Shown here: positions 4,563 to 64,000 of the stretch, in pieces
Layout: every line of letters begins with the position of its first letter
Numbering within the stretch: position 1 is the first letter of the stretch
NCBI RefSeq assembly: GCF_028885415.1
Contig: NZ_CP118527.1
Coordinates: 5,332,001 to 5,396,000 of the forward strand
DNA from: Streptomyces coeruleorubidus
GTDB lineage: Bacteria; Actinomycetota; Actinomycetes; Streptomycetales; Streptomycetaceae
Length of the DNA: 64,000 bases
Reading direction: 5' to 3'
Position numbers and translations under genes: made by a program
Notes under the pieces: model-generated
Told to the model about the DNA's origin: nothing
The model's database searches: none
Seen by the model: only the letters and a program-made list of their open reading frames with translations

Positions 4563-5224
4563 CCATTCGCGTGCTGATCGCGGACGACCAGATGATGGTG
4601 CGCGAGGGCTTCTCGGTCCTGCTGAACGCGATGCCGGACATGGAGGTCGTCGGCGAGGCGGTGAACGGCCGGGAGGCCGTCGCGAAGGTCCGCGAACTCG
4701 CCCCGGACGTCGTGCTGATGGACATCCGCATGCCCGAGCTGAACGGCATAGAGGCGACCCGCGAGATCGTCGCCGCCGACGGCGCGGCGAAGGTGCTGGT
4801 GCTCACCACCTTCGACCTCGACGAGTACGTCTACCAGGCGCTGCGCGCGGGAGCCTCCGGCTTCCTCCTCAAGGACGCCTCGGCCCGCCAGCTCGCCGAC
4901 GGGGTGCGGATCGTGGCCGACGGTGAGGCCCTCCTGGCCCCCTCGGTGACCAGGCGCCTGATCACCGAGTTCTCCAAGCTCTCCGAGACCCCGCGCCTCA
5001 TGCCCTCCGCGCAGGCGGCGTACGGCGACCTCACCGACCGGGAGACGGAGGTGCTGGTCCTCATCGCACAGGGCCTGTCGAACGCGGAGATCGCCGAGCG
5101 GCTGGTGGTCGCCGAGTCGACGATCAAGACGCATGTCAGCCGGATCCTGGTGAAGCTGGGGCTCAGGGACCGGACGCAGGCGGCGGTGTTCGCCTACGAG
5201 GCGCGGCTGGTGACGCCCGGCTAG
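4559..5224 (+). CDS. response regulator, NarL/LuxR type, second tandem system
   Basis: 221 residues. The receiver domain contains IADDQMMVREGF and Asp55 in VVLMDIRMPE. The C-terminal LuxR helix-turn-helix contains LTDRETEVLVLIAQGLSNAEI and TIKTHVSRILVKLGLRDR. It is very close in sequence to the regulator at 2445, so the pairs are paralogous and cross-talk is conceivable. Cognate kinase assigned from the 4-bp overlap. Confidence 0.92.
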   Translation: MTIRVLIADDQMMVREGFSVLLNAMPDMEVVGEAVNGREAVAKVRELAPDVVLMDIRMPELNGIEATREIVAADGAAKVLVLTTFDLDEYVYQALRAGASGFLLKDASARQLADGVRIVADGEALLAPSVTRRLITEFSKLSETPRLMPSAQAAYGDLTDRETEVLVLIAQGLSNAEIAERLVVAESTIKTHVSRILVKLGLRDRTQAAVFAYEARLVTPG

Positions 5225-5273
5225 CCGGGGACGCCGCCCCGCAGGCCCTCGGGCCCGGGGGCGACGGGCCGGA

Positions 5274-5363
5274 TCAGTCCAGCTGCATCGGCACGCAGTC
5301 GCTCACGTACGACTTGTCGACCCAGCCGGTGGTGCCCTCGGCCAGCCCGCACGCACAGCTTAA
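5274..5363 (-). pseudogene. C-terminal remnant of a small SH3-like secreted protein
   Basis: On the minus strand a short open stretch ends CGLAEGTTGWVDKSYV followed by SDCVPMQLD and a stop. This looks like the last strands of a bacterial SH3-type domain (GWV..YV and a Cys pair) as found in small secreted Streptomyces proteins. Nothing upstream in frame supplies a start or signal peptide, so it is read as a leftover fragment. The rest of the gap between 5225 and 5447 holds only the P450 promoter region. Confidence 0.35.
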
Positions 5364-5447
5364 CGATCTTGATCTGGATGGCTGACCCCGCCTGTCCTGC
5401 CGGAACACCCCTGGTCAGATGGGCGGATGTGGGGCTAGCGTCCGTCC

Positions 5448-6668
5448 ATGGCAGCTGCTTTTGACCTCGCGTTCGACCCGTGGGACTCGGCGTTCCTCGC
5501 CGACCCGTACCCCGCCTACGCCGAGCTGCGTGCCCGGGGCCGTGTGCACCACTACGAGCCCACGAACCAGTGGCTCGTCCCGCACCACGTGGACGTCTCG
5601 GCGCTGCTGCGGGACCGGCGTCTGGGCCGGACGTACCAGCACCGGTTCACGCACGAGGAGTTCGGCCGCACCGCGCCCCCGCCGGAGCAGGAGCCGTTCC
5701 ACACGCTCAACGACCACGGGATGCTCGACCTGGAGCCGCCGGACCACACCCGGATCCGGCGCCTGGTGTCGAAGGCGTTCACGCCGCGCACGGTGGAGCG
5801 GCTGAAGCCGTATGTGCGGGGCCTGGCGGACGAGCTCGCCTCGGCCCTGGTCGAAGAAGGTGGCGGCGACCTGCTGAAGGACGTAGCCGAGCCCCTCCCG
5901 GTGGCGGTGATCGCCGAGATGCTCGGCATCCCGGAGTCCGACCGGGCACCGCTGCGTCCCTGGTCGGCGGACATCTGCGGGATGTACGAGCTGAACCCGT
6001 CCGAGGAGACGGCGGCGAAGGCGGTCAGGGCGTCGGTGGAGTTCTCCGACTACCTGCGCGAACTGATCGCGGCCCGCCGCGAGGAGCCGGGCGAGGACCT
6101 CGTCTCGGGCCTGATCGCGGCCCACGACGAGGGCGACCGCCTCACCGAGCAGGAGATGATCTCGACGGCGGTCCTCCTCCTCAACGCCGGCCACGAGGCC
6201 ACGGTGAACGCCACGGTCAACGGCTGGTACGCCCTGTTCCGCAACCCGGCCCAGCTGGAGCTGCTGCGCGCGGACCACACGCTCATCCCCTCCGCCGTGG
6301 AGGAACTGATGCGCTACGACACCCCGCTCCAGCTCTTCGAGCGCTGGGTCCTGGACGACATCGAACTCGCCGGCACGACGATCCCGCGCGGCGCGGAAGT
6401 CGCCCTGCTCTTCGGCTCCGCCAACCACGACCCGACGGTGTTCGAGAACCCGTCCGCCCTGGACCTGACCCGCGCCGACAACCCCCACGTCTCGTTCAGC
6501 GCCGGCATCCACTACTGCATCGGCGCACCCCTGGCCCGCATCGAACTGGCCGCGTCGATGGGGGCGCTGCTGGAGAGGGCACCGACGCTGCGACTGGCCG
6601 CCGAGCCGGTCCGCAAGCCGAACTTCGTGATCAGGGGGTTGGAGGGGCTGGCCGTCGAGGTGGGCTGA
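5448..6668 (+). CDS. cytochrome P450 monooxygenase
   Basis: 406 residues, normal length for a soluble actinobacterial CYP. The I-helix shows LLLNAGHEATVN (G-x-E/D-T-type oxygen-activating motif), the K-helix shows EELMR (ExxR), and the haem loop reads FSAGIHYCIGAPLARIE with axial Cys357. It would hydroxylate or epoxidise a small organic substrate using electrons from a ferredoxin. No ferredoxin or reductase gene is adjacent and no biosynthetic cluster is visible, so the substrate cannot be inferred. The gene stands alone, with a long upstream gap. Confidence 0.95.
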   Translation: MAAAFDLAFDPWDSAFLADPYPAYAELRARGRVHHYEPTNQWLVPHHVDVSALLRDRRLGRTYQHRFTHEEFGRTAPPPEQEPFHTLNDHGMLDLEPPDHTRIRRLVSKAFTPRTVERLKPYVRGLADELASALVEEGGGDLLKDVAEPLPVAVIAEMLGIPESDRAPLRPWSADICGMYELNPSEETAAKAVRASVEFSDYLRELIAARREEPGEDLVSGLIAAHDEGDRLTEQEMISTAVLLLNAGHEATVNATVNGWYALFRNPAQLELLRADHTLIPSAVEELMRYDTPLQLFERWVLDDIELAGTTIPRGAEVALLFGSANHDPTVFENPSALDLTRADNPHVSFSAGIHYCIGAPLARIELAASMGALLERAPTLRLAAEPVRKPNFVIRGLEGLAVEVG

Positions 6669-51630: not shown

Positions 51631-51676
51631 TGTCGGGGTGGCGGGATTTGAACCCACGACCTCTTCGTCCCGAACG
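51631..51676 (-). other. tRNA-Pro(CGG) 3' half, attachment site (att)
   Basis: On the minus strand: CGTTCGGGACGAAGAGG (anticodon loop CGG and 3' stem), T-arm GTGGGTTCAAATCCCGC, acceptor CACCCCG. The matching 5' half is not upstream; unrelated DNA (GGGCTATGCAGAGGTCACAT) is there. This is the element-side junction of an AICE inserted in tRNA-Pro. Confidence 0.88.
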
Positions 51677-54379: not shown

Positions 54380-54472
54380 GCCTGCTCGTGACCTTGCCGT
54401 GGGGTACTGACGTGCCCGTTTCGGCTCCGGCGTCGTCCACTACCGTCCGGGACGGTCTGGGTTCGGCCGCAT

Positions 54473-54498
54473 CGTTTGGCCCCCTGTTTGGCCCCCCG
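54473..54498. repeat. 26-bp repeat flanking part of the cargo, right copy
   Basis: CGTTTGGCCCCCT followed by GTTTGGCCCCCCG; one mismatch to the copy at 51766, 2.7 kb away in the same orientation. The pair brackets the hydrolase and HTH-SUMF1 genes. Confidence 0.7.
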
Positions 54499-54620: not shown

Positions 54621-55253
54621 ATGCTCACACCTGAAGACGCGTCATTTATCACGGCCGCAACCGAGGGCCTCTCTGAACCTCTCTACGCTGCGCTTGACGA
54701 TGGCTACACAGCGGCGCACGCGCACTTCGACGAGCACGGCATGGTGGGAGACGGGTACTCGAAGGGGCGAACTGACCTCGCTCGGGACCATGCGCGTCGG
54801 TACGTGGAGCGTCTCCACGGTGATCGGAAGCACCTCGGTGGGTGGGAGCCAATCAACGGTTCCAGCGGGCGGTTCCACTTGCGCAACGGCATGCTCACTC
54901 TGCGCATCCTGCATGCAACGCCCTATGACCTGATCCCTGCCCCGGGGCGCAACAAGGCTCGCATCAGCTACTACTACAATCGAGCGGTTGACCTGTTCGG
55001 CGTCGAAGCGAGTAACCTCCTGGCCGTTTGGCTGTCGCCCCGCGAAGAGGGTGGGGAGATCTCCGTGCGCATCGTGCGTCCGATCGGGGAATGGAAGCCC
55101 GGTCGGCCGCCGAAGTTCGACCTCGATTTCGAGCTGCCGCGTGAGACTGAAGCGTTCACGGACTGGGAGTTCGTGCCGGACGACAAGGGCATCGTGCTGC
55201 CCTTCGAGTTCGACGAAGATGAGCGCGAAGAGGGTGAAGGAAGTGGTGCATGA
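54621..55253 (+). CDS. hypothetical protein upstream of HTH-ImmA/IrrE gene
   Basis: 210 residues from ATG 54621. Helical N-terminus (TAAHAHFDEHGMVGDGYSKG; DLARDHARRYVERLHGDRK), a beta-rich middle (GRFHLRNGMLTLRILHATPY) and a very acidic tail (EFDEDEREEGEGSGA). No known domain. The stop lies inside the next gene's start region, so the two are coupled; it could be a toxin or the substrate/partner of the peptidase. Confidence 0.7.
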   Translation: MLTPEDASFITAATEGLSEPLYAALDDGYTAAHAHFDEHGMVGDGYSKGRTDLARDHARRYVERLHGDRKHLGGWEPINGSSGRFHLRNGMLTLRILHATPYDLIPAPGRNKARISYYYNRAVDLFGVEASNLLAVWLSPREEGGEISVRIVRPIGEWKPGRPPKFDLDFELPRETEAFTDWEFVPDDKGIVLPFEFDEDEREEGEGSGA

Positions 55254-56394
55254 TCCTGCGGAGCGGATCCGGACGCTCCGGCTCCTCATGGGGTTGACCC
55301 AGGGGGAGCTGGCTCAGGCCGCAGGCGTGTCTCAGCCGATGATCTCGCAGATCCAGAAGGGCACCAAGGGCGTCACTGACGACCTGTTGGGGCGGATCGC
55401 TGAGGCAACGGGAACACCACGCTCATTCTTCGATGTCGACCCGACCGACCTGCCGACTGACACCCTTCTGTTCCGCAAGAAGGCAAGTGCATCAGTTCGT
55501 GAGGTTGGTCGGGTCGAAGCGACTGTTCGAGAGGCTTATCGGGTTGCAGCGCGGCTCCTCACTGAGACGCGAGTGCGCCGGACAACTCTGCCTAGGGCAG
55601 AAGGGAAAGTCTCTCCTGACGCCATTGAGGACCTTGCCTCTGCAACGCGAGATGCGTTGGGTATTGGCCAGGATGGTGTTCTTGGGCACGTTATCCGATC
55701 CTGTGAGCGAGCGGGAATTCCGGTCGTGCCTCTTGTGCTTGTCGACGCTCAAGGGCACGGGGAAGATATCGTTGTCGGACATTCTGGGGTCTCCTGTTGG
55801 CGGGGGCAGGCAGAGCCTTCCCTGATCAGCTACTTCTCAGCCGGAAGTGGCGATAGGCAGCGATTCACAGTGGCCCATGAGCTTGGGCACCTGGTGCTGC
55901 ATCCAGCAAGGAGAGCGGAGCTTTCCTCTAAGGAGGCAGAGGCAGAGGCTCATCGGTTCGCCGGGGCCTTCTTGCTTCCCCGCGTACGTGCTGATGAGGC
56001 GTTTTCAGGTCCTCTGATGCTTCGGGACTTCGCCGCGCTTAAGAAGCGTTGGGGTGTGTCCATCCAGGCGCTAATTCAACGAGCGTACGACCTCGGATAT
56101 GTTGATAGTGATCGCCGAGAAAGTCTATACAAGCAGATTGGCGCCCGGGGGTGGCGCACCAGTGAACCTGTTGCTGTCCATCCTGAGCAGCCATCTTTGA
56201 TGAGAGCGATGCTGGCTCGTCGCTACGGTGAGCCGCCTGCTGTTCTTCAAGCATCAGAGGACTTGGGAATTCACCCTGTCCTGATGAGGTCACTTGCCCC
56301 GGAAAATGCTGCTAACCCGGCTCCGAAAAAAGCGGCCAATGTCATTAGTCTAGGTGAGCGCCGTCAGCGTGTAGCACGTCTTAAAGCCTTATAG
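55219..56394 (+). CDS. XRE-HTH plus ImmA/IrrE metallopeptidase
   Basis: 391 residues from ATG 55219; GTG 55246 next to AAGGAA is an alternative. HTH at residues ~15-70 (LLMGLTQGELAQAAGVSQPM; SQIQKGTKGVTDDLLGRIAE) and a zinc peptidase domain with HELGH (His220, His224) in RFTVAHELGHLVLHP and a downstream Glu in AEAEAHRFAGAFLLPR. ImmA/IrrE proteases cleave repressors in phages and ICEs upon DNA damage. Middle part is A/T-rich versus flanks, a sign of transfer. Confidence 0.88.
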   Translation: MSAKRVKEVVHDPAERIRTLRLLMGLTQGELAQAAGVSQPMISQIQKGTKGVTDDLLGRIAEATGTPRSFFDVDPTDLPTDTLLFRKKASASVREVGRVEATVREAYRVAARLLTETRVRRTTLPRAEGKVSPDAIEDLASATRDALGIGQDGVLGHVIRSCERAGIPVVPLVLVDAQGHGEDIVVGHSGVSCWRGQAEPSLISYFSAGSGDRQRFTVAHELGHLVLHPARRAELSSKEAEAEAHRFAGAFLLPRVRADEAFSGPLMLRDFAALKKRWGVSIQALIQRAYDLGYVDSDRRESLYKQIGARGWRTSEPVAVHPEQPSLMRAMLARRYGEPPAVLQASEDLGIHPVLMRSLAPENAANPAPKKAANVISLGERRQRVARLKAL

Positions 56395-57861: not shown

Positions 57862-58197
57862 TCACGCACCACCCGGGACGGAACGCTCTTCGAGCGCTGC
57901 GACCCGTTCAGTCAACGCCTGAATTTGGGAGCGGATTTCCTTGATGTCGTCGCGCACGTCGCTGCTGGGGGAAGCCCCGTCGCTGACGAAGTTGCCGAGG
58001 TTCCCGGCCGACACGATCAGCCCTTCGGCCCGAAGTGCAGCCAAGCCGTTCTGGATGGTCTGGCTCGCGAATCCGAACCGGTCGATCAACTCGCGCTGTG
58101 ACGGGAGCTTGTCCCCCGGCTTCATCTTCTTGATGTCCTCGCGAAGTGCGTCCGCGACCTGCACCGCTTTCGGCTTCGGCCCTCCTGTGACAGTCAT
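57862..58197 (-). CDS. KorSA-like GntR family repressor
   Basis: 111 residues. GntR winged helix: VADALREDIKKMKPGDKLPS, QRELIDRFGFASQTIQNGLA, ALRAEGLIVSAGNLGNFVSD; C-terminal coiled coil (DIKEIRSQIQALTERVAALE) for dimerisation, no ligand domain. In pSAM2 KorSA represses pra and transfer functions. Here repeated operators lie before its gene and it is divergent from the transfer operon. Confidence 0.88.
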   Translation of the reverse strand: MTVTGGPKPKAVQVADALREDIKKMKPGDKLPSQRELIDRFGFASQTIQNGLAALRAEGLIVSAGNLGNFVSDGASPSSDVRDDIKEIRSQIQALTERVAALEERSVPGGA

Positions 58198-60563: not shown

Positions 60564-60881
60564 ATGCGCAACGCCGACATCCGCCGCCTGGACAGAGAGA
60601 TTCAGGCGACCACGAAGAAGCTCGAAGCAGTCCGCCGGGGTGAATGGTGGCCGCTGAACGGCAGCGAGCGCCGGGCCATGGCCCGCTCCCTGGCCGTCGG
60701 TGGCTACAAGGTGGCCCGGGGCCGCAGCGCAGGCCGTGAAGAGCAGCGCATGGAAGCCACCGGCAACTCTGCCGAGATCCGGCTGAACGCGGAGCTGACC
60801 GCCCTGCACGGTGAGCGGCAGAGGCTCATCACTGAGGCCGCCCGCGCCAAGGCCAAGAAGAAGTCGTCCGGCTGGTTCTGA
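60564..60881 (+). CDS. small basic AICE protein
   Basis: 105 residues from ATG 60564 after CGAGGAGCG. Helical/coiled (RNADIRRLDREIQATTKKLE; AEIRLNAELTALHGERQRLI) with a lysine-rich end AKAKKKSSGWF. Unrecognised; located between the zinc protein and Tra. Confidence 0.72.
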   Translation: MRNADIRRLDREIQATTKKLEAVRRGEWWPLNGSERRAMARSLAVGGYKVARGRSAGREEQRMEATGNSAEIRLNAELTALHGERQRLITEAARAKAKKKSSGWF

Positions 60882-60982
60882 CCAGCCATCGCCCCGGGGT
60901 GGCCGCTCTTTCCACGGACCCGGCCACCCCGGCTCTCTCCCTTACTCGCGCCCCTGTGGGGGCAGTCAGGAGAACTTCCAGC

Positions 60983-63304
60983 ATGTCTGAGAACGTCGTC
61001 CACCTCCACAAGCACACCGCCCACCCGACCTCCGACACGGCCCCCACCGTGCTCACGGTCGTGCCGGACGCGCCGCCCGCGCGGCCCGTGCCGCTGTGGG
61101 TGCGCTCCGGCCGTGCCATCAAGACCGGCGTCACCCACGAGAAGACCCGCGCGACGGTCCGGGCGGCGGCCCGGCACAGCCTCTACACGTTCAACGGCGG
61201 TCGGATCGTGGCCCGTCGCGCGTGGGACGGCCGTACCGGGTCCCGGTACGAGCGGATGATCCGGGCGGCGGAAGCCGCGGGAAACCTGGAGGCGGCCGAA
61301 GAGTGGGAGGAGCGGTTGCAGCGCTTCCGCGCCGCCCGCCACCACCGCCGCATGGACCTGCTCCACTCGCCGGTGGAGGCCGCCAAGGGCGTGGCCGTCG
61401 GCGCGGGCATGAGCATCGGTGTCCTGGTCGCCCTCGGCGTCGTCATGGCCATCAACACCGGCCACGTCGGCGATGTCATCACCCCGCTGTCGGCGACCAT
61501 CGACTTCATCGCCCTGCTCATCCGGATCGTGCAGGTGGTGTGGGGTCCGGCGCTCACGATCGGCCCGTTCCTGGCCCTGCTGGCGCTGTGGTCGGTCGGC
61601 CGCAAGCAGCACGCCGCCCCCGCCTGGGCCTTGCCCGCCAACGTCCGGGGCAGCGAGGGTGAGCCGATCACCCCGTCCATCGTGGTCAAGGCCCTGCGTG
61701 ACCTCGGAGTGCCCGCCTTGGCGCGGGCCATCAAGGAGATGGGCGACGCCGGCGCGTCCATGCTCGGGCCGATCCGGATCGCCGGATGCGGCGTGGAAGT
61801 CGACGTGACCCTTCCCTCCGGGGTGGCCACGAACGAGGTGCAGAACAAGCGCCGCAAGCTCGCCGAGAACCTCACCCGGCACGAACACGAGGTGTTCATC
61901 ACCATCCCCGAGGCCGCGCGGACGGTGCGGCTGTGGATCGCCGACTCGGGGGCGCTGGACGAGCCGATCGGCCCGTCCCCGCTGGTCACCGACGAGACGC
62001 TGACCGCGAACTACAAGACCGGTCGGGCCCCGTGGGGCCAGGACCTGCGCGGGGACGCGGCTGAGCTGAGCGTGTATCAGCGTCACCTGTTGGTCACGGG
62101 CCTGTCCAACCAGGGCAAGACCGCCGCCCTGCGGGCGCTCGCCCTGTGGTTGGCGCTGGACCGTACGGTGCAGTTCTGGATTGCCGACCTGAAGGGTGTC
62201 GGCGACTGGGCACCGTTCGACGGCATCGCGAAGGTCCTGATCGAGGGGCCCTCGGACAGCCACTGCATTCAGGCGACCGAGATGGTTGAGGACGCGGTGG
62301 AGGAGATGAACCGGCGGATCGAGGCGGTTCGCAAGGACCCGTCCCTCGTGTTCCCGCCGCTAGGCGGCCCCCACCTCTCGCCAAAGAACGCGGGGCCGCC
62401 CTTGCCAGCCAGCACCATCAAGGAACTGGAGATACCCAGCATGACGCAACCCACCATCGCCCCGCGAGCCTTACCGGCGGGAGCTCCCGCCGCGAGCGGG
62501 ATGCGGTTCTACCTGACCACCCACAAACGGCACTGGGTCAAGCTCACCGACGTGCCGCTGTTCCTGAAGTCCGAGCACTTCGCCGCCGCAGCCAAGCTGT
62601 ACCCCGCCCGCGGCCGGTACGCGGTCGACTCCGGCGGCTTCTCGGAACTCCAGCGTCACGGATGCTGGACGCGCAGCCCACGCCAGTACGTGGACGACCT
62701 GCGCCGCATCTGGGAACACGTCGGCCCCTACGACTGGGCCGCCGGTCAGGACTGGATGTGTGAAGACCTCATCATCCACGGCGGCACAGCGGGCCCCCTC
62801 ACCTTCGTCGGGACCAAGCTGAGCGTGCCGGAGCACCAGCGCCGCACCGTGCACAACTTCCTGGACCTGCGCTCCCTTGCCCCGACCCTGCGCATCATCC
62901 CCACCCTTCAGGGCCGCACCGTGGCCGAGTACCACGCGTGCGCGGACCTGTACGAAAGCTACGGCGTCAACCTGCGCCGCGAACCCACCGTCGGGCTGGG
63001 CTCCGTGTGCCGGCTGCAGTCCACCAAACAAGGGGCGGCGATCGTCACCGCGATGGCCGCCCGCGGCTACCGGCTGCACGGCTTCGGGTTCAAGATCCTC
63101 GGTCTGGAACGGGTCGGACACCTGCTTGCCTCCGCGGACTCCGCGGCCTGGAGCTACCACGCCCGCAAGCGGCCACCGCTGCCCGGCCACACCCACAAGA
63201 ACTGCGCCAACTGTCTCGACTACGCCCTCAACTGGCGCCGCCGGGTCCTGGCTGCCATCCCCACCTACCACCAGACGCTGCTGACCGACGGGAGTGCGGC
63301 ATGA
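60983..63304 (+). CDS. Tra (FtsK/SpoIIIE-like) DNA translocase, C-terminally truncated and open into the next gene
   Basis: ATG 60983 after AGGAGAAC. Residues ~130-205 hold two membrane helices (GMSIGVLVALGVVMAINTGH; ALTIGPFLALLALWSVGRKQ). A winged/OB-like segment follows, then Walker A G373LSNQGKT380. Sequence similarity stops at about residue 458 (SLVFPPLGG), only ~75 residues after Walker A: Walker B, sensor and the C-terminal DNA-recognition part are missing. The frame has no stop and continues through 27 unrelated residues into the transglycosylase-like gene. Double-strand DNA transfer function is probably lost. The true Tra end is about 62358. Confidence 0.75.
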   Translation: MSENVVHLHKHTAHPTSDTAPTVLTVVPDAPPARPVPLWVRSGRAIKTGVTHEKTRATVRAAARHSLYTFNGGRIVARRAWDGRTGSRYERMIRAAEAAGNLEAAEEWEERLQRFRAARHHRRMDLLHSPVEAAKGVAVGAGMSIGVLVALGVVMAINTGHVGDVITPLSATIDFIALLIRIVQVVWGPALTIGPFLALLALWSVGRKQHAAPAWALPANVRGSEGEPITPSIVVKALRDLGVPALARAIKEMGDAGASMLGPIRIAGCGVEVDVTLPSGVATNEVQNKRRKLAENLTRHEHEVFITIPEAARTVRLWIADSGALDEPIGPSPLVTDETLTANYKTGRAPWGQDLRGDAAELSVYQRHLLVTGLSNQGKTAALRALALWLALDRTVQFWIADLKGVGDWAPFDGIAKVLIEGPSDSHCIQATEMVEDAVEEMNRRIEAVRKDPSLVFPPLGGPHLSPKNAGPPLPASTIKELEIPSMTQPTIAPRALPAGAPAASGMRFYLTTHKRHWVKLTDVPLFLKSEHFAAAAKLYPARGRYAVDSGGFSELQRHGCWTRSPRQYVDDLRRIWEHVGPYDWAAGQDWMCEDLIIHGGTAGPLTFVGTKLSVPEHQRRTVHNFLDLRSLAPTLRIIPTLQGRTVAEYHACADLYESYGVNLRREPTVGLGSVCRLQSTKQGAAIVTAMAARGYRLHGFGFKILGLERVGHLLASADSAAWSYHARKRPPLPGHTHKNCANCLDYALNWRRRVLAAIPTYHQTLLTDGSAA
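62441..63304 (+). CDS. queuine tRNA-ribosyltransferase-like protein (DUF7221)
   Basis: 287 residues counted from ATG 62441 (GGAG 10 bp upstream). TIM-barrel transglycosylase hints: Asp63 in GRYAVDSGGFSELQRHG, like the catalytic DSGGFQ of TGT, QDWMCED, RIIPTLQGRTVAEYHACADL, VGLGSVCRLQ near the place of the TGT GLAVGE motif, and a terminal CANCLDYALNWRR with CxxC. True TGT swaps guanine for a 7-deazaguanine in tRNA; relatives (DpdA) act on DNA. Encoded within AICEs; substrate unknown. Confidence 0.75.
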   Translation: MTQPTIAPRALPAGAPAASGMRFYLTTHKRHWVKLTDVPLFLKSEHFAAAAKLYPARGRYAVDSGGFSELQRHGCWTRSPRQYVDDLRRIWEHVGPYDWAAGQDWMCEDLIIHGGTAGPLTFVGTKLSVPEHQRRTVHNFLDLRSLAPTLRIIPTLQGRTVAEYHACADLYESYGVNLRREPTVGLGSVCRLQSTKQGAAIVTAMAARGYRLHGFGFKILGLERVGHLLASADSAAWSYHARKRPPLPGHTHKNCANCLDYALNWRRRVLAAIPTYHQTLLTDGSAA

Positions 63305-64000
63305 GCGAGACGCCCTACCCCCAGCACACCGCGCTGAGCCTCGCCGCTTCCGGCGTGCCGGTGCTGCCCCTGCGGCGGGGCAAGGTTCCGTTCGGTAACT
63401 GCCCTACCTGCGCGGGCAACGCGTGCGGGGGCCGGCCAAACATGAAGACCCCGGGGCCCTGCCGGTGCCCTGGCGTCTGCCACGCGTGGGCCGCCGCCAC
63501 CACCGACCCGGCAGTCATCGTCTCGCCCCCGTGGGCGGCGGCGTGGCGGCGGTCCGTCTGCGTCGCCTACCACCCCGGCGCCGCCGGGCTGACCGTCGTG
63601 GACCTGGACAACGCGGACGCCATCGCGTGGGCCCGTACCGTCCTGCCGGCCACGCGCACGGTGGCGACGACGCGCGGTGAGCACTGGATCTATCGGGGCG
63701 CCATGACTTCACACAACGCGGTCCGGCCCGGTGTCGACGTCAAGTCGTCCATGTCCTACGCCCGCTACCTGGGGCCCGGCACCGGCCACATGGTCGACCT
63801 ACCGGACGCCGTGCGCGCCCTCGCGGTGAAGAAGCCTTCCCCCGTCCGGCCGGCGCCGCATGTCGGCACCCTGCCCGCAGGGTCCGGGGAGTGCCCGCAC
63901 CGCACGCCCGCTTACCTGGAACGCGGCATCGCAATGGCCGAACAGCGCATCACCAAGGCGCGCAGCGCAATCCACGCGACCGTGTACCGGACGTTCCTCG
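63301..64000 (+). CDS. bifunctional DNA primase/polymerase (AICE replication), 3' end beyond window
   Basis: First 233 residues visible; ATG 63301 overlaps the previous stop. Prim-pol domain: ALSLAASGVPVLPLRRGKVP, a Cys-rich insertion CPTCAGNACGG...GPCRCPGVCHAW, metal-binding DLDNAD in GLTVVDLDNADAIAW, then TTRGEHWIYRG and GVDVKSS. Replaces RepSA in one AICE branch and supports rolling-circle-independent replication of the excised form. No stop before the window edge. Confidence 0.88.
   Translation, partial: MSETPYPQHTALSLAASGVPVLPLRRGKVPFGNCPTCAGNACGGRPNMKTPGPCRCPGVCHAWAAATTDPAVIVSPPWAAAWRRSVCVAYHPGAAGLTVVDLDNADAIAWARTVLPATRTVATTRGEHWIYRGAMTSHNAVRPGVDVKSSMSYARYLGPGTGHMVDLPDAVRALAVKKPSPVRPAPHVGTLPAGSGECPHRTPAYLERGIAMAEQRITKARSAIHATVYRTFL

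Follow-up and report, generated by a model that had tools for sequence, protein, structure and literature searches.

A DpdA-type gene in the slot between leader and primase-polymerase gene of a Streptomyces integrative and conjugative element

Expression of the dpdA gene of phage 9g results in 7-cyano-7-deazaguanine (preQ0) in plasmid DNA, and phages that encode DpdA alone are also known, their modification being left open in the same report (Hutinet et al. 2019, PMC6884629). The GATOR-GC preprint on dpdAB islands (PMC11888242) describes bacterial dpd islands in which the gene is accompanied by dpdB, dpdC, and a restriction operon. Here, we describe a dpdA gene of Streptomyces coeruleorubidus carried by an actinomycete integrative and conjugative element (AICE), a type of element that is described as being transferred as double-stranded DNA (PMC9513070, PMC3218068). 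The stretch analyzed, hereafter the window, is 64,000 nucleotides long and covers positions 5332001 to 5396000 of a one-contig, 9,411,092-base genome (NZ_CP118527.1). By profile, fold, and context the gene product is a DpdA-type base-exchange enzyme. With moderate confidence we read it as a DpdA-type enzyme in a DNA-modification slot of the AICE, with a predicted activity on the DNA of the element itself.

The dpdA product and its relatives

PF23859 (DpdA) was the sole Pfam family matched by the product up to an E value of 1 (E = 4.9e-67, 226.4 bits, curated cut-off 27), and PF01702, the tRNA-guanine transglycosylase (TGT) family, gave no match in this range. Among PHROGs, phrog_1279 was matched with an E value of 3.4e-68; searches of NCBIfam and PADLOC with the protein returned no match. 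An earlier note made from the letters of the window had pointed to DSGGFSELQ and a terminal CxxC as signs of a TGT- or DpdA-type enzyme, and the E values place this resemblance far above chance. The open reading frame (ORF) that it gave was exact, as was the start of DSGGFSELQ at residue 63. The CxxC is present as C255-A-N-C258, preceded by the invariant H252, but is near-terminal, about 30 residues from the C terminus. DSGGF is presumably the active-site motif common to TGT and DpdA enzymes, with D63 as a catalytic residue. Of the candidate residues for a zinc site and a second catalytic Asp, C190, D233, H252, and C258 were invariant and C255 was at least 90% conserved in a 77-row sequence alignment. 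The window protein matched all 53 columns with at least 97% conservation across 55 other rows, and pairwise dN/dS values against 16 relatives ranged from 0.17 to 0.43; dpdA is under purifying selection.

The structure prediction proposed in the earlier note gave an AlphaFold model with a pLDDT of 90 and a TGT-type fold. Its top Foldseek match was PDB entry 7ui4, a solved DNA preQ0 insertase DpdA, and tRNA transglycosylases were also matched. The 7ui4 protein, which we take to be the DpdA of Salmonella Montevideo, shares the TGT-type fold and differs from the window protein in its 413 residues and an identity of 10 to 12%; PDB sequence searches with the protein and with the alignment profile found nothing, the link to 7ui4 coming from the fold search alone. 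Profile, fold, and context thus bear out the assignment of a DpdA/TGT-type enzyme to an AICE. Comparison with the bacterial dpd cluster (dpdA to dpdK) covered DpdA.

A protein search identified 2,461 relatives of DpdA, the best being 93% identical. Among the 120 matches listed, a frequent name is "deazapurine DNA modification protein DpdA family protein" or a close variant of it, so the family label is already in public annotation. Relatives on phages accounted for 399 records, 392 of which covered at least 80% of the query; among the matches listed, they are about 41 to 46% identical over most of the protein, and most are annotated as queuine tRNA-ribosyltransferase. The 19 rows of AICE proteins in a tree of 38 rows grouped as a single clade with 100/100 support. 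The slot label described below required four changes on the tree, at least three of them forced by well-supported branches, and slot and nonslot AICE copies are therefore mixed. DpdA-only mycobacteriophages resemble the element in having DpdA without preQ0 genes but are phages, and the AICE proteins form a separate clade. In Streptomyces phage Gilgamesh (L098, 4002-6774), dpdA lies near a 3'-phosphoadenosine-5'-phosphosulfate reductase-like gene and a gene for a 190-amino-acid hypothetical protein, a possible modification cluster.

Leader, start peptide, and slot

The space between a hairpin leader and the primase-polymerase (prim-pol) gene, where dpdA lies in the window, was compared across 106 elements. 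These comprised 96 dpdA-less elements with a close Rep, minus L221 (988 bases, too short), plus 11 dpdA-bearing elements including the window. In the Rep survey, at most six candidates were scored per genome and elements were taken among the matches listed; fragmentary, contig-edge, duplicate, or weaker Rep copies were left out, and a few loci are near-copies within one genome. The definition of the slot was set after the first loci had been inspected, and the methyltransferase queries were drawn from the same loci. A slot was counted as empty when the match to the leader model, R1, ended within about 125 nucleotides of where the prim-pol match begins.

By this definition 60 slots were empty, 34 held C5-DNA-methyltransferase-like genes, 10 held dpdA, one held a methyltransferase remnant (L137), and one held another ORF (L167). 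Three of the elements counted as empty have such genes nearby, with dpdA just before the leader in L041 and a methyltransferase with its own leader directly upstream in L197 and L214. The 34 include L180, in which the methyltransferase was confirmed as an open frame; in all 33 others checked, the matched frame was stop-free and a PC motif was present. All 16 slot or near-slot proteins scanned matched PHROG DNA methyltransferase families, and for the short slot proteins the likeness to methyltransferases comes from PHROGs and the motif and not from Pfam. Tandem methyltransferases were found in four of the 34 slots (L135, L155, L193, and L201), as two different C5-methyltransferase-like genes after one leader. 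In L137, the N terminus of a methyltransferase is fused to prim-pol, which suggests loss from the slot, and in L052 leader, methyltransferase, and dpdA follow one another as one operon. Among 47 named loci, which partly overlap the genus loci treated below (at least nine in common), 38 belong to the AICE clade (at least 65% identity); 15 of these carry the start tag, and a methyltransferase stands directly after dpdA in three and directly before it in one.

The orphan C5-methyltransferase-like genes of AICEs (phrog_363-like) thus share slot, leader, and an MTQPT-like start with dpdA. C5-methyltransferases are unrelated to DpdA in fold and chemistry, as they transfer a methyl group and do not exchange a base. 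Judged by its occupants, the dpdA slot looks like a DNA-modification slot of the Streptomyces AICE family, and the exchange with DNA-methyltransferase-like genes favors modification of DNA over that of tRNA. A literature search that left most subscription journals outside its reach turned up no earlier description of an AICE-borne DpdA or of a slot of this kind.

R1 matched all 106 elements; in 31 to 32 of them the match is built in, as their leaders went into the model. The window leader had no part in the building of R1 and scored 58.4 bits. In the whole genome of the host this was the single R1 match at an E value of ≤0.001 (150 of 16,990 candidates scored). Across 32 leaders, both partners had changed in 11 of 15 pairs, and such changes filled 47 cells compared to a shuffled mean of 8.6; covariation as high was seen in none of 500 shuffles and was lost when the partners were slid. 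The window leader does not fold better than its shuffles, 20 of 200 of which do as well (z = -1.23), so that its support is purely comparative. No known RNA was recognized in the leader: an Rfam search of 10 sister loci at gathering thresholds found nothing there, and the Rfam E-value search of window positions 60850 to 62460 gave one chance-like match elsewhere. In other elements the leader is also present ahead of tra and, by eye, of other prim-pol-like genes. Its loop is conserved, and the gene that follows it in AICEs is prim-pol, a methyltransferase gene, dpdA, or tra. The leader may act as RNA or as a signal in single-stranded DNA. A leader was also identified at the prim-pol gene of a 14.3-kb Streptomyces longwoodensis plasmid (NZ_CP108973.1, 4233-4313), which may be an element of this type in its free state.

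The start peptide of the window protein, MTQPTIAPRA, is a variant of the commoner MTQPTxIRR. As a DNA pattern, an MTQPT-like start with a Shine-Dalgarno (SD) sequence was present in 33 of 36 methyltransferase elements, 44 of 59 classed as "none," and 11 of 11 dpdA elements, counts that follow a first classing in which L180 stood within "none," the tag of L041 is that of prim-pol, and the match in L153 lies in an earlier gene.

Precursor supply and competing readings

A role in modifying the DNA of the element is the most likely one for DpdA. Ahead of TraB-driven transfer of double-stranded DNA, or in its course, the enzyme would exchange some guanines in the double-stranded DNA of the element, and perhaps of the host, for a 7-deazaguanine-type base, and nucleases of the recipient would then fail to recognize the modified element.

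Several observations weigh against this role. In the genome of the host, no match was found to QueC (TIGR00364) at an E value of ≤0.001 (12 of 13 candidates scored), QueE (TIGR03365), VUT/YhhQ, or TGT. VUT is a family of queuosine-precursor (preQ0) transporters. Two partial PF06508 matches exceeded the cut-off; they were rejected as QueC, since they span about 70 of the 210 positions, their frames are long (915 and 541 amino acids), and TIGR00364 finds nothing there. QueD (TIGR03367) gave one match, below its cut-off. A full preQ0 pathway, a known importer of preQ0, and a TGT are thus all undetected in the host, and the 7-deazaguanine part is accordingly a proposal; the lack of preQ0 genes, noted earlier for the window, extends to the genome with the partial PF06508 and QueD matches as qualifications. 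For phage Orion, whose DpdA is unaccompanied by preQ0 genes, DNA free of 7-deazaguanine is reported (PMC6884629); its likeness to the element is drawn from the published description. The empty state of 60 of the 106 slots means that the function of the slot is dispensable, a Pfam search of 10 methyltransferase-like proteins matched only one (PF00145), and the 115-amino-acid ORF between leader and prim-pol in L167 (6261-6606) was not recognized as a DNA-modifying enzyme. Nor does the fold match tell DNA and tRNA enzymes apart.

Across the genus, DpdA was above cut-off in 27 of 246 genomes (the host included), and QueC was above cut-off in four of these 27 compared to 20 of the other 219, which gives no clear link of dpdA to preQ0 synthesis and also weighs against the proposed role. 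Full-length QueC matches just below the cut-off were found in G079, G136, G193, and G198, none of them dpdA positive, and a weak two-piece match was found in the dpdA-positive G098. QueE and QueD were searched in 12 dpdA-positive genomes, chosen to include all four with QueC; those four, in which queC, a queE-like gene, and queD lie near one another, were the positive controls. VUT was above cut-off in five of the 27, and 20 had neither QueC nor VUT above cut-off. VUT adjoins dpdA in four of 13 genus loci outside the AICE clade, in three of nine named loci outside the clade, and in all three plasmid loci opened, two of which had been picked for a VUT label in the match list. In these pairs DpdA is about 43 to 53% identical to the window protein and VUT overlaps or adjoins dpdA, in contrast to none of the 18 AICE-clade loci fetched; VUT pairing was accordingly rejected as the precursor route of the clade. 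The arrangement, in which dpdA overlaps or follows the VUT gene, was seen in actinobacterial plasmids and Streptomyces genomes (L066, L067, L068, L035, L044, L050, and L065) and is a possible salvage-fed modification pair.

Because the host shows no complete pathway, known transporter, or TGT, the base would have to be scavenged by an unknown route, the enzyme would work only once transfer has brought it into a host with the base, or a different base would be used. The last option, in which DpdA exchanges DNA guanine for a base outside the preQ0 family and que genes are unneeded, is a subcase of modification of the element's DNA and seems unlikely. Purifying selection on dpdA despite the 20 of 27 positive genomes with neither QueC nor VUT, together with the lack of adjacent VUT in the clade, speaks for it, and the frequent pairing with VUT outside the clade speaks against it; in addition, we know of no alternative base for DpdA. 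A different enzymatic role would be to place 7-deazaguanine into host tRNA in lieu of the missing TGT and thereby to tune translation or mark tRNA; modification of host tRNA had been offered in the earlier note beside that of DNA. The host without a TGT match, the archaeosine and queuine TGTs that reach the same Z as the 7ui4 DpdA in the fold search, and the queuine tRNA-ribosyltransferase label of most phage relatives among the matches listed are all in line with it. However, PF01702 is not matched, relatives are frequent on phages, the slot is exchanged with DNA-methyltransferase-like genes that also form tandem operons with dpdA, and the complete precursor pathway is missing for tRNA as well. 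We consider a tRNA role quite improbable; the occupants of the slot lend support to the DNA guess and make tRNA the less likely target.

The window copy could also be a passenger on a decaying element, weakly expressed or made as a Tra::DpdA fusion, with no substrate or effect, and we regard this as an appreciable possibility, compatible with modification of element DNA by the family at large. The earlier note placed dpdA correctly between Tra and prim-pol but did not mention that tra is truncated and fused in frame with it as one 801-amino-acid ORF (60899-63304). The FtsK match covers only profile positions 35 to 124 of 221, and the alignment to relatives breaks off at window position 62361 and restarts at 62363, 78 bases upstream of dpdA. 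Judged from these alignments, the second half of tra was removed by deletion; the corresponding stretch is 1,835 bases in L060 and, in L051, L053, L054, and L055, comprises the remainder of tra and an ORF of about 150 amino acids. A Tra of the same family (at least 71% identity), spanning at least positions 1 to 704 of 706, was found in nine of the 47 named loci, one of which, L237, is the element that supplied the Tra query. The element in Streptomyces griseomycini (L227) has a near-complete Tra and a DpdA 93% identical to the window protein, and the deletion was found in no other copy examined. As tra is broken, the window element is probably no longer self-transmissible. This loss, the missing precursor pathway, and the frequency of AICE decay, described as common (PMC9513070), fit a passenger, whereas the 53 of 53 conserved columns and an SD-like sequence and start of its own do not. 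L053 has an additional HNH-like ORF (by eye; 4949-5998, opposite strand) between a membrane ORF and dpdA.

Beyond the enzyme itself, we tentatively suggest that Streptomyces AICEs may have a standing slot for swappable DNA-modification enzymes, in which a C5-methyltransferase (single or in tandem) or DpdA is grafted in frame behind leader and start peptide; the base placed by DpdA would be hypermodified, without a coencoded pathway and not necessarily derived from preQ0. If so, the slot would serve to hide from restriction an element that is transferred in double-stranded form.

Features of the element and significance of the slot

The features of the window are collected in Table 1. The exact 45-bp copy of a tRNA-Pro 3' end sets the length of the element at approximately 16.0 kb. 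With tRNA-borne attachment (att) repeats, a tyrosine integrase (PF00589, E = 5.2e-23), and a replication module of Prim-Pol (PF09250) and Rep, the element is an AICE; Rep had no Pfam match at an E value of ≤0.001 and was matched in 97 of the 246 genomes of the genus. Within the element, HTH_3 and an IrrE-type peptidase domain (PF06114) share a single frame (54988-56394). A 26-bp exact direct repeat (54472-54497 and L002:11548-11573) lies inside the element near both ends and is perhaps an arm site for integrase or excision.

Table 1. Positions of dpdA and other features of the element in the window
Feature	Position	Strand	Remarks
dpdA, 287 amino acids	62441..63304	+	ATG to TGA, intact; PF23859, fold, conserved columns
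DSGGF codons, residues 63-67	62627..62641	+	D63, S64, F67 invariant in 77-row alignment
H252-x2-C255-x2-C258 codons (HxxCxxC, residues 252-258)	63194..63214	+	candidate zinc ligands
MTQPT codons	62441..62455	+	start peptide; variants common to slot methyltransferases and prim-pol of sister elements
SD-like GGAG	62428..62431	+	before dpdA start
Leader hairpin	62363..62400	+	9-bp stem remaining here; R1 match 62336-62441
Second, weaker leader match before tra	60871..60971	+	25.8 bits, E = 0.001; folding z = -2.55
Truncated tra (FtsK/TraB-like)	60983..62361	+	stops just ahead of Walker B region of relatives; junction 62361/62363
Prim-pol gene	63301..64000, on to L002:8143 outside window	+	PF09250; overlaps dpdA stop by 4 nucleotides
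GntR-family regulator inside element	57862..58197	-	
attL-like 45-bp repeat	51632..51676	+	identical to tRNA-Pro(CGG) 3' end at L002:11624-11668, beyond window

The family name of the enzyme is ordinary and its setting is unusual. What DpdA does when it is encoded without preQ0 genes was left open in the published text (PMC6884629), and the situation is encountered here on conjugative elements. As dpdA and DNA-methyltransferase-like genes replace each other after one common leader, the DNA-modification hypothesis is directly testable on natural elements that differ in the slot. The finding raises the question of where the base comes from. It also points to one more strategy, next to orphan methylation or a slot left vacant, by which an element may enter new cells in double-stranded form.
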